In this document: piece after piece, positions 24,808-27,648 of the stretch
Position numbering within the stretch: the stretch's first letter is position 1
Layout of the letters: each line of letters opens with the position of its first letter
Source: a virus
DNA length: 27,979 bases
Virus record (IMG/VR): IMGVR_UViG_3300046457_000100
Location: 1-27,979 of that record
Reading direction: 5' to 3' (one strand)
Made by a program: the position numbers and the translations under genes
Notes under the pieces: model-generated
Seen by the model: only the letters and a program-made list of their open reading frames with translations
Told to the model about the DNA's origin: nothing
Database searches by the model: none

Positions 24808-25017
24808 TTACCGAAAATCATTCGGGTCATGCGGCCAACGAGGAGGACGAGGTCTCGTCTTCTCCTCTGGATCAGGGGCTTTGGTCGACAGCCAGCAGAG
24901 TCCCCCGATGATAACCAGCACGGCTAGATAGGGAGCCATGGCCATGAACATGGCAGACAGCGCCAGGAACATGGCTACGAACAGGATCCCTATGAGCAGG
25001 ATCCCGAATGCGTTCAC
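24808..25017 (-). CDS. Small membrane protein, last gene of minus-strand block
   Basis: This 69-residue protein has two adjoining hydrophobic helices (about residues 4-26 and 28-45) and a short polar, Pro/Arg-rich tail (PDPEEKTRPRPPRWPHDPND). The GTG start overlaps the stop of the upstream gene in a GTGA arrangement, a standard sign of translational coupling. I do not recognise a family. A membrane protein at the end of the replication block might be involved in host takeover, superinfection exclusion or lysis, but nothing in the sequence decides this. Confidence 0.62.
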   Translation of the reverse strand: MNAFGILLIGILFVAMFLALSAMFMAMAPYLAVLVIIGGLCWLSTKAPDPEEKTRPRPPRWPHDPNDFR

Positions 25018-25472
25018 TCAGCGTTGCTCACGCGCTTCAGCCCGCCGAACAGGCTCTTCTTCGGCGCTTCAACCGGGGGAGCTTCGTTGTCGCCTTGCAC
25101 TGCTTCCGGCTCAGCCGAACCTTCCGTGTCACCAGTTTGCTCCCCAGCCTGGGTCGAGGTATTCGTCTCGTCCGAAGTCGGGGTCAGTTCGTTTCCCTGG
25201 CTCACGACTTCGGCTGCCTTCGGCGCCGGCTCTTCCCGCTTGAGCACCGGAGCGGCCGGAGCAGCAGTTTCAACCTTCGGTGCCGGGGCCGGCGCAGCTG
25301 CCTTCAGCTTGGCCGGCGTGATGTCGATGTCCGCCGTGAAGCCCACATCACCACGGGTCGAGCGGATGTCGATGTCGATCTGCATGCCTTCTTTGATCGT
25401 GATCTGCTCGCTGATGTAGTTGCGGATTGCTGCTTCGATTTCCGTCTGAACGATCTGGATTTTCATTTTCAT
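25014..25472 (-). CDS. Unknown protein with N-terminal domain, Pro/Ala linker and KKSLFG tail
   Basis: This is a protein of 152 residues from ATG 25472 (ATGA overlap with the resolvase stop) or 150 residues from the next ATG at 25466. The latter is better placed relative to the AAAGG upstream. Residues 1-55 form a small predicted alpha/beta unit (EIEAAIRNYISEQITIKEG, then IDIDIRS...). Residues about 56-130 are a disordered Ala/Pro/Glu/Thr linker. The C-terminus has APKKSLFGG (KKSLFG at 138-143), nearly the same as the SSB tail encoded two genes upstream. I do not know a family. The shared tail suggests a common partner with the SSB. Confidence 0.7.
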   Translation of the reverse strand: MKMKIQIVQTEIEAAIRNYISEQITIKEGMQIDIDIRSTRGDVGFTADIDITPAKLKAAAPAPAPKVETAAPAAPVLKREEPAPKAAEVVSQGNELTPTSDETNTSTQAGEQTGDTEGSAEPEAVQGDNEAPPVEAPKKSLFGGLKRVSNAE

Positions 25473-26026
25473 ACCTTTGCGAAGAGTCGCATTAAATTCT
25501 GGAACATGGGCGTATTCACGCCTGCATGGATTGCGCCGATGGCGTCGGCTACGTGTTCTGCTTTGGTCGCTGAGACTGCGCCGTTGTGATACGGCCAGTT
25601 GGCATCGGGGTATTGGGCCAAGCCCGCTTCAATCATCTGGTTCTTGGTCGCGTCTTTCTTGCCGGAAAATGCCTTCTTCACTTCAAGTGCGGTCACTTCG
25701 ATCAGGGGGATCCCTTCGGCCATGACTGCACCCAGCACTCCAATACAGAATCCGTAGGACGCCATCGCTCGCGCTGACTGGGATCCAACGGGGACTTCGA
25801 CGAAGATCACTTTCGCCTTGCGGGCAACTGGGAGCACTACCTCCGCCAGTTGCCGGGTGAGGTAGAGATCGCTGGAGTTCTGACGAACCTGCTTGCCTTC
25901 CATGTCCTTGGGACAAACCACGGACAGGTGAGGGTTGCTCAGCTCGCCAGAATCCAGATCCAGTACTGCCTGGGCGATCCCCCAGTTACGCATGGCGGGA
26001 TCGAAGCCGACGACAGGGATCTTCAT
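25469..26026 (-). CDS. RuvC-like Holliday-junction resolvase
   Basis: This 185-residue protein has the RNase H-like RuvC pattern: GFDPAMRNWG with D9 and N14, VIFVEVPVGSQ with E77, and near the C-terminus KAEHVADAIGA with E157, H158 and D161. These are the expected metal-binding acids of a junction-resolving nuclease acting on branched DNA before packaging. The length is close to that of bacterial RuvC (about 170 aa). It begins six bases after the SSB stop and overlaps the next gene by four bases, so it belongs to the same operon. The family call is good; specificity for Holliday junctions over other branched DNA is inferred. Confidence 0.85.
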   Translation of the reverse strand: MKIPVVGFDPAMRNWGIAQAVLDLDSGELSNPHLSVVCPKDMEGKQVRQNSSDLYLTRQLAEVVLPVARKAKVIFVEVPVGSQSARAMASYGFCIGVLGAVMAEGIPLIEVTALEVKKAFSGKKDATKNQMIEAGLAQYPDANWPYHNGAVSATKAEHVADAIGAIHAGVNTPMFQNLMRLFAKV

Positions 26027-26032
26027 GGCGCT

Positions 26033-26803
26033 TTACTTCTTGCCGAAGAGCGACTTCTTCGGAGCTGCATCGCCACCTGCTTGGGGCGGAGCACCGGCCT
26101 TCGACGATTGCGGAGCGCCACCTGCGCCGCCTTGGCCGTTGCCGCCCTTGTACTTGCGGCCATCACGGGTCTTGCCCTTGTTGAGCTCGACCCAGCCTTC
26201 CCAGAATGCGCCGACATCGGCACCGGCCTTCGCTTCGACGATGGTCAGCTTGTGCTCCGGGTGGAACACCTTGTCGGTGGCGTTCTCTTCGCGCTCTTCA
26301 GCCGTCGGCTGATAGTCGCCGTTGGCATCCTTCTCGCTCTTGTTGACGAGCTTCTTCAGCACGCCGAGAGCCACTTCCTGGCCGATCGTTTCGACCAGCA
26401 TCGGCATGGCCTTGTTGACCTGCTTGCCGTCTTCCCAGATCTGAACGATCTTGTCTTCCGTGTCCTGCTCGGACAGGCCCTTGCCGGTGGCAATTTGGCA
26501 GATGTCATCGACGATCGTGAAGCCCGGCAACGGTGCCTTCTTGCCCGTCGGCTTGCCGGTCTTGTCCTTCGCCGCGAAGAAGTTTTCGCCGTTCTTGTTG
26601 GTGATCCAGAACACCTCGCGGTATTCCTTGCCCGCTTGCTCACCGAGGAAGGTGATCGACGTTGCGCCGCCGTTCGACTTGCCGGCGAACATCGCCTTGA
26701 TCTTGAACGTGTAGATGTCCGTGTCGAGCGGACGGAATCCGCCCAGACGATCGGTTGCTTCTTCGAGGCCGTTGGTGCTGAGATTGCCGAACAGAGTGCT
26801 CAT
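26033..26803 (-). CDS. Single-stranded DNA-binding protein (N4 gp45-like)
   Basis: This 256-residue protein matches the SSB of N4-like phages in length (N4 about 265 aa), position and pattern: YTFKIKAMFAGKSNGGATSI, the segment EVFWITNKNGENFF, PLPGFTIVDDICQIATGKGL, then EREENATDKVFHPEHKLTIV. From about residue 205 it is a Gly/Ala/Pro/Lys linker ending in APKKSLFGKK (KKSLFG at 249-254). In N4, the SSB coats single-stranded DNA in replication and also activates host RNA polymerase at late promoters, through its C-terminus as I recall. ATG 26803 has only a weak upstream AAAG. It lies between the ATPase and resolvase genes. Confidence 0.85.
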   Translation of the reverse strand: MSTLFGNLSTNGLEEATDRLGGFRPLDTDIYTFKIKAMFAGKSNGGATSITFLGEQAGKEYREVFWITNKNGENFFAAKDKTGKPTGKKAPLPGFTIVDDICQIATGKGLSEQDTEDKIVQIWEDGKQVNKAMPMLVETIGQEVALGVLKKLVNKSEKDANGDYQPTAEEREENATDKVFHPEHKLTIVEAKAGADVGAFWEGWVELNKGKTRDGRKYKGGNGQGGAGGAPQSSKAGAPPQAGGDAAPKKSLFGKK

Positions 26804-26847: not shown

Positions 26848-27609
26848 TTATTTGCCGTAGAACTCGTTCAGGTGATCCAGCAGTTTCTGTGCGTCGTTAT
26901 CGATGAACGTCTCTGCCTTGTCGAACATGCCCATCGGGCTGCGCACCCGGTAGCCTGTCGTTTGCTTCGTGGGCCTCGTCTGGAAGACGTGCTTGTAGCC
27001 CAGTTCCTTCTCTTCCTCGGTGATCTCCAGCATCTTGGAGCCGTACTTTTCCAGCTCCTTGACTGGCACCTTCTTGGCGACAACCACGGTCGAGAAGTAC
27101 GCCTCGATACCGTTGTTCTTCAGCGATCCCTTGACCGGTACTTTGGTCTTGATCGTGGCTGATGCCTCGTCCAGCTCGTCCAGCAAGTGGGCGATGATGA
27201 TCACCGGCTTGCCGAACTTCGTGACCTTCTCCTGCATGAGCTTCTTGAAGAACTGCGCATACTGGCCCCATGCCTGCATGGTGTTTGCGCTGTTGAGTAC
27301 GTACTGCGACTCGAACATGTCCATCAGGAACGTGGATGAGTCGATGATGATTCCGTCGACCTGGTCCTTGTTCTCGATGCAGTCATCGAAGTAAGCCCAC
27401 ACTTCGTAGGGGTCAGTGACCCGCACGTTGTTGAAGCTGTTCCTGAAGGGGAGGCGCTTACCTGCCTCGCAATTCAGATACACCCATCTCTCCTGGTTCC
27501 GGATCTCACGCAGCGATGCGCTCTTTCCTTCCCCGGAGAAACCTGCGATCAGCATCAGCTGATCATTGACTTCACCGATTTCGATGTCGTCTTCCATTAC
27601 TTCGCTCAT
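26848..27609 (-). CDS. RecA-fold ATPase, Sak4-like (N4 gp44 position)
   Basis: This is a 253-residue P-loop ATPase. I chose ATG 27609 because GGAGAG precedes it at good spacing; an in-frame TTG at 27645 is unlikely. Walker A is GFSGEGKS (23-30), and Walker B is VDGIIIDSSTF with D90. FGKPVIIIAHLLDELDE follows, as expected for the next core strand. The shape fits AAA_24/Sak4-type recombination mediators, which phages use with an SSB for strand annealing or exchange; the SSB gene lies 44 bases downstream. The C-terminal third (RPTKQTTGYRVRSPMGMFDK) looks like a substrate region of the same family. A different DNA-repair ATPase role remains possible. Confidence 0.8.
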   Translation of the reverse strand: MSEVMEDDIEIGEVNDQLMLIAGFSGEGKSASLREIRNQERWVYLNCEAGKRLPFRNSFNNVRVTDPYEVWAYFDDCIENKDQVDGIIIDSSTFLMDMFESQYVLNSANTMQAWGQYAQFFKKLMQEKVTKFGKPVIIIAHLLDELDEASATIKTKVPVKGSLKNNGIEAYFSTVVVAKKVPVKELEKYGSKMLEITEEEKELGYKHVFQTRPTKQTTGYRVRSPMGMFDKAETFIDNDAQKLLDHLNEFYGK

Positions 27610-27633
27610 GTTCTCTCCAGAGGCTGATCCCAA

Positions 27634-27648
27634 TCCTTGAACCAAGGA
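27634..27648. other. Small hairpin with dispersed motif upstream of ATPase gene
   Basis: TCCTTG (27634-27639) pairs perfectly with CAAGGA (27643-27648) around the three-base loop AAC. It overlaps a dispersed-motif copy (27639-27649) and lies 25 bases upstream of the ATPase start on the - strand. Its short stem and three-base loop resemble N4 vRNAP promoter hairpins, but nothing else of such a promoter can be shown here. Confidence 0.35.

Follow-up and report, generated by a model that had tools for sequence, protein, structure and literature searches.

The window, a 27,979-base stretch of DNA, is a fragment of an N4-like phage (Schitoviridae), with a portal protein of the SU10/N4 type and an N4-type major head protein as markers of this family and a protein of 3,912 amino acids that occupies the place of the virion RNA polymerase. 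At its right end, on the minus strand, lie a primase fragment and the genes for a Sak4-like protein, an SSB, a RuvC-like resolvase and a protein of 152 amino acids (Table 1). The last four of these correspond in order to N4 gp44-gp45-gp46-gp47, and together with the primase fragment the order is that of gp43-gp47.

Table 1. Features of the minus-strand operon and the evidence used to assign them.
Feature	Position	Strand	Evidence
SSB, N4 gp45 family, 256 aa	26033..26803	-	phrog_743, E=8.3e-68, residues 3-256; 41% identity to N4 gp45
Putative SSB C-terminal docking tail, APKKSLFGKK	26036..26065	-	Sequence; aligned to N4 tail
RuvC-like Holliday junction resolvase, N4 gp46 equivalent, 185 aa	25469..26026	-	phrog_159, E=1e-34; Pfam RuvC match weak, below cut-off
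152-aa protein, N4 gp47 family, resolvase-associated	25014..25472	-	phrog_18842, E=1.5e-21; phrog_7641, E=1e-19
gp47-like conserved N-terminal domain, about 54 aa (extent approximate)	25311..25472	-	Block at residues 1-52 in tblastn matches; alignments
Putative gp47-like C-terminal docking tail, KKSLFGGLKRVSNAE	25017..25061	-	Sequence; family consensus SLFx[NG]Lx[KR]PxN
Sak4-like RecA/Rad51-type annealase, N4 gp44 equivalent, candidate tail partner	26848..27645	-	phrog_124, E=8e-46

In fold, the Sak4-like protein matches RAD51, RecA and Sak4 (8rc5). No sequence relative of the SSB was found among solved structures, and a fold search with its model returned weak OB-fold matches only, with PrgE as the best; the gp47-like protein matched solved structures only at chance level (ribosomal protein S16). 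Tyr75 of the N4 SSB, reported to be essential for ssDNA binding (PMC2784036), aligns with W66 of the window SSB (26606-26608), a residue that is aromatic but not tyrosine. The 152-aa protein is placed in the N4 gp47 family by its N-terminal homology and its position after the resolvase gene, and matched 91 phage records by tblastn, while a direct search of viral contigs with this single protein recovered no gp47 relatives. Its gene is followed by one for a 69-aa membrane-type protein (24808-25017), and in several relatives, too, small proteins of a similar kind come after gp47. In Klebsiella phage FBKp27 (L096:4757-5080) and Pectobacterium phage CB4 (L097:4778-5113), a gene annotated as Mu Gam-like end protection lies between the SSB and RuvC genes.

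The SSB ends in APKKSLFGKK (as part of the longer stretch ...GGDAAPKKSLFGKK) and the 152-aa protein in APKKSLFGGLKRVSNAE (...PVEAPKKSLFGGLKRVSNAE), which includes the C-terminal SLFx[NG]L tail of gp47 proteins (KKSLFGGLKRVSN). A sequence-only reading of the window had pointed out the hexapeptide KKSLFG in both tails, and it is indeed encoded at 26042-26059 in the SSB gene and at 25044-25061 in that of the 152-aa protein, on the minus strand in both cases. That reading also took the two proteins to be otherwise unrelated, in agreement with BLASTP, in which the identical 8-mer APKKSLFG is the only meaningful alignment; the ten residues that it counted beyond KKSLFGG in the 152-aa protein, however, number eight (LKRVSNAE). 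The tails are encoded differently (AAG TCG CTC TTC GGC in the SSB, AAG AGC CTG TTC GGC in the 152-aa protein), and since the serine and leucine codons differ between the copies within phages, a recent duplication of the tail at the DNA level is ruled out. The window SSB also carries a related sequence at its other end, where MSTLFGNL (26780-26803; MSLFGNL in relatives) resembles the SLFxNL of the gp47 tail.

We followed both tails through approximately 200 loci, obtained from searches anchored on SSB and Sak4 and supplemented with named phages (an alignment that took in highly diverse SSBs varied too much for use as a search query). A C-terminal [SNA][LI]F is found in 192/198 SSBs: within the last 12 residues, 185 have [SN][LI]F and seven more have ALF, while the remaining six keep the phenylalanine in a different setting. 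Among the 157 distinct SSBs the phenylalanine is invariant, with serine at F-2 in 145 and leucine at F-1 in 152. Similarly, [STA][LI]F lies within the last 30 residues of 139 of the 148 complete gp47 homologs; as a base rate, [ST][LIM]F occurs in this part of 4 of the 71 annotated N4 proteins, one of which is the SSB. The wide conservation of both tails thus excludes a chance match. Absence of the motif from either protein in close relatives, which the sequence-only reading had named as counting against it, is not seen: both tails are retained in relatives at about 70% identity in the SSB (L010-L021), and in the clade of the window the gp47 tail is extended to SLFx[NG]Lx[KR]PxN. In N4, Zuri and CB4, no ORF products other than SSB and gp47 were found to carry the tail, apart from scattered chance matches, among which we count TLFRKRGWR of N4 gp67.

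The genomic context of gp47 links it to Holliday junction resolvases, as it is encoded after a RuvC-like gene or fused behind a RusA-like resolvase. Such fusions occur in JA-1, RHph_X3_15, V12, RG-2014 and many environmental loci, with the tail retained. In three loci (L006:2565-3551, L094:4690-5487 and L103:4724-5842), natural RusA-gp47 fusions stand in for separate RuvC and gp47 genes. Unfused gp47 homologs belong to PHROG families of unknown function; families 18842, 7641, 27655, 7564, 27468 and 20916 take in the homologs of the window and its relatives, but their annotation mentions neither the tail in common nor the link to resolvases. Whether the second protein competes with the SSB or assists it had been left undecided in the sequence-only reading, and the link to resolvases favours a role in recruitment.

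In divergent genera, the tails of SSB and gp47 leave the KSLFG sequence together. The SSB ends in SSLFDD and the RusA-gp47 fusion in SSIFDVD in the roseophages V12 and DS-1410Ws-06; the corresponding pairs are DDPFTL and DDPFANFD in Klebsiella FBKp27, SDLFL and LDLFS in Pectobacterium CB4, APSLF-stop and VPPLF-stop in Vibrio MS02, and KRQFFKR and KTVFGKR in Acinetobacter Presley, with the weakest pair in D285 (KLKFD and AELFNS). We scored the similarity between each SSB tail and the gp47 tail of the same phage over residues -4 to +3 about the last phenylalanine, leaving out the phenylalanine itself, and compared it with what random re-pairing gives once the phages are clustered by the identity of their SSBs. 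The similarity within phages exceeded the permuted value with 72 clusters (10.6 vs 6.4±0.5, p<5e-5), with 14 clusters (10.4 vs 2.4±1.4, p<5e-5) and with 8 clusters (9.9 vs 3.8±1.8, p=0.0015). As SSB and gp47 are not homologous, shared ancestry alone does not predict this covariation.

Several divergent gp47 homologs carry three to five copies of the motif in their disordered chain, and these copies match the motif of their own SSB. In CB4 they read TDLFADP, ADLFAEP, LDLFSDP and LDLFS (SSB, SDLFL), in Presley KRSFGKK, KRTFGKT, KRTFGSK and KRTFGAR (SSB, KRQFFKR), and in MS02 PDLFEG, PSLFDT, PSLFPE and PPLF-stop (SSB, PSLF-stop). A CB4-like phage (L110), the Sak4 of which is 84% identical to that of CB4, has PNLFVD, ENLFAD and INLFA in gp47 and DNLFM in the SSB, and this in-step change from D to N is what a single evolving pocket would impose. 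The N-terminal SLFxNL of the SSB was considered as a further member of the covarying set and rejected, being unlike the tails in divergent phages. The covariation and the matching internal repeats strongly support the proposal of the sequence-only reading that both tails dock on one shared partner, and the comparison of sequences makes a shared, co-evolving docking peptide on the SSB and a resolvase-linked protein a well-supported interpretation.

The partner described for such a tail is the host RNA polymerase. In N4, residues S260, K264 and K265 of the SSB tail form an activating region for this enzyme (Miller et al. 1997, as cited in PMC2784036), and the SSB contacts a conserved region at the C-terminus of the beta' subunit (PMC2784036, PMC4496689). 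The polymerase, not Sak4, is the experimentally shown partner of the N4 tail. All three activating residues are present in the window SSB, where they align with S252, K255 and K256, and both tails might accordingly be imagined to dock on the beta' C-terminus, with the SSB activating late transcription and gp47 helping or tuning it. However, the lysines are limited to certain clades while SLF is conserved: no lysine or arginine follows the phenylalanine in 102 of the 157 distinct SSBs, and at least two follow it in just 23. The SSBs of roseophages terminate in DD, with a similar shift in their gp47 partners. Moreover, the C-terminal 157 residues of beta' from Klebsiella and Pectobacterium (related host species rather than the exact host strains) match those of E. 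coli at 94% and 86%, respectively, and yet the tails differ entirely between N4 (SLFGKK), FBKp27 (DDPFTL) and CB4 (SDLFL). The gp47 protein, in addition, is linked to resolvases and not to transcription genes. Thus, the host RNA polymerase, a candidate in the sequence-only reading, stands as the published partner of the N4 SSB tail, but the rarity of the lysines and the variation of the tails across near-identical beta' C-termini make it unlikely as a family-wide partner, and we regard the docking of both tails on beta' as quite improbable. The same two observations, conserved SLF with variable lysines and different tails in hosts with similar beta', make a phage-encoded partner likelier, and we infer that both tails likely share one partner encoded by the phage.

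Among other candidates, the sliding clamp comes to mind because SLF forms the last three residues of QLSLF, a strong clamp-binding motif, and the tails could in that case bring both SSB and gp47 to the beta clamp of the host. This candidate of the sequence-only reading is disfavoured, since the glutamine of the motif, at F-4, is found in only 6/157 SSB tails (the residue is mostly T, R, K or A, and K in the window); we reject the clamp-motif reading for this absent glutamine. The annotations of N4, Zuri and CB4 list no clamp, and recruitment to it is in our judgement very improbable. It is somewhat less doubtful, though still unlikely, that the partner is another replication protein of the phage, such as the family A DNA polymerase, the primase, the helicase or the gp42-type exonuclease. 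Their genes lie in the same block, and SSB C-tails commonly recruit polymerases and primases, as established for E. coli SSB and T7 gp2.5. We found no precedent for these proteins as partners in this family, whereas Sak4 has one in another phage (PMC5928155).

Sak4, the adjacent Rad51-like annealase, was missing from the candidates of the sequence-only reading and is now our leading, if still tentative, candidate for the partner of both tails. Its gene lies upstream of that of the SSB in 188/188 testable loci, a count biased by the loci that were found via Sak4, and the two genes adjoin in the window as in the HK620-type pair. In HK620, binding of Sak4 to SSB-coated ssDNA depends on the last six residues of the SSB encoded next to it, and these residues thereby bring Sak4 to the ssDNA (PMC5928155); the SSB and the annealase of 80alpha likewise act through C-termini (PMC11846896). 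The HK620 tail differs in that it reads NDYPPF, like a bacterial SSB-Ct, and belongs to an SSB of 21 kDa, and no second tail-bearing protein is seen in the portion of the paper available (PMC5928155). Because Sak4 is present throughout, gene content does not distinguish it from other core proteins of replication, and charge covariation of the tail with columns of Sak4 or of the SSB core did not favour the former over the latter.

In AlphaFold2 models of a locus (L031) in which Sak4 and SSB were joined artificially, with the intervening stop codon read as glutamine solely to provide a tether, mean confidence for the tail was ~74, as against ~54 in the SSB alone. This placement of the tail with Sak4, judged from confidence values, is suggestive but confounded by the freed N-terminus of the SSB: the confidence of that N-terminus (MSMFNNL) changes in the opposite direction, from 72 in the SSB alone to below 50 when tethered to Sak4, and in the tethered model the tail may therefore have occupied a site on the SSB instead. 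The SSB could be its own partner if a pocket in its core bound the N-terminal SLFxNL, the C-tail of the same protein and the gp47 tail by turns, with gp47 clamping the SSB on ssDNA or releasing it. The similarity in the KSLF clade between the SSB N-terminus, MSLFGNL, and the gp47 tail, SLFxNL, is consistent with such a pocket, as is the placement of the tail solely in the model in which tethering displaces the N-terminus. Nevertheless, the N-terminal motif departs from the tails in divergent phages (MGFLDSA in CB4, MGFKLKT in Presley, MSNIFAKKK in V12), and the tail remains at low confidence in the model of the SSB alone. We consider this arrangement rather unlikely.

Overall, the best explanation, and one that we hold to be reasonably probable, is a shared docking peptide with a phage-encoded, co-evolving partner, most likely Sak4. 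Under this explanation, the KSLFG tail would be a short linear motif for docking, placed where a disordered linker ends and presented in Schitoviridae by two non-homologous proteins: each SSB protomer has one copy, and the gp47-like protein has one to about five. The gp47 protein would be a small domain acting together with a Holliday junction resolvase, either the RuvC next door or the fused RusA. Both tails would bind one phage-encoded partner, the pocket of which co-evolves with them, and SSB-coated ssDNA and the resolvase could in this way be delivered to one and the same machine or change places on it. The SSB may load the adjacent Sak4 annealase onto ssDNA, and gp47 may carry the resolvase to the joints made by Sak4. 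More speculatively, and with less probability than Sak4 as the partner, gp47 could be the phage counterpart of a BRCA2-like adaptor, offering one or several copies of the peptide with which the SSB docks on Sak4, in a hand-over from SSB to annealase to resolvase through one co-evolving pocket, with the contact to host RNA polymerase in N4 a later, clade-specific use of the tail.

The C-tails of SSBs are known recruitment hubs. The bacterial SSB-Ct (DDDIPF in E. coli) similarly consists of a C-terminal hydrophobic peptide that recruits partners from the end of a disordered linker, and to our knowledge it is carried by the SSB only. Its tip is acidic and ends in phenylalanine, whereas the tail of the window SSB, KKSLFGKK, is basic with three residues after the phenylalanine; the tails of FBKp27 (DDPF) and MS02 (SLF-stop) come closer to the bacterial type. 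In BRCA2, the FxxA and LFDE motifs of the BRC repeats bind RAD51 (PMC9162458), and if Sak4 is the partner, the likeness lies in a disordered chain with repeated phenylalanine-centred peptides as ligands of a protein of RecA/Rad51 type. The two cases differ in that no sequence homology is shown, the binding of Sak4 is a proposal and the gp47 copies are shorter; furthermore, most gp47 homologs, that of the window included, have a single copy, and repeats are found in divergent homologs.

N4 gp45 itself belongs to the same family as the window SSB, in the same neighbourhood and with an SLFGKK tail, but the published work, as cited in PMC2784036, covers only the SSB and host RNA polymerase (Miller et al. 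1997). In the open-access literature searched, we found no paper on SLFGKK in a phage SSB, and no description of a tail shared by the SSB and a second protein in Schitoviridae, of its covariation or of the clade restriction of the lysines. A non-homologous protein that tracks the changes of the SSB tail, sometimes in multiple copies, is a strong sign at the sequence level of a shared binding site. It provides a hypothesis of function for gp47, a family-wide protein of unknown function, and suggests a possible coupling of SSB, annealase and resolvase in N4-like phages. It also raises the question of whether the classic activating region of N4 is primarily a docking peptide for replication or recombination.

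The deposited sequence of N4 gp47 (L002:11678-12140; N4 NC_008720 31678-32140) has lost the frame of the conserved tail, as it has one A fewer in a run of A than PMBT57, a phage of the same species in which gp47 ends in VQAKPSLFAGLKR. Among the isolates with a match spanning the whole gene, 13 others of the N4 species, PMBT57 included, have the length of PMBT57 or differ from it by 12 bases in either direction, and thus keep the frame. All these lengths being multiples of three apart, the N4 record (two accessions) is the exception, by either a sequencing error or a laboratory mutation, and a difference of one base in the reference strips the gp47 tail from the record of the model phage.
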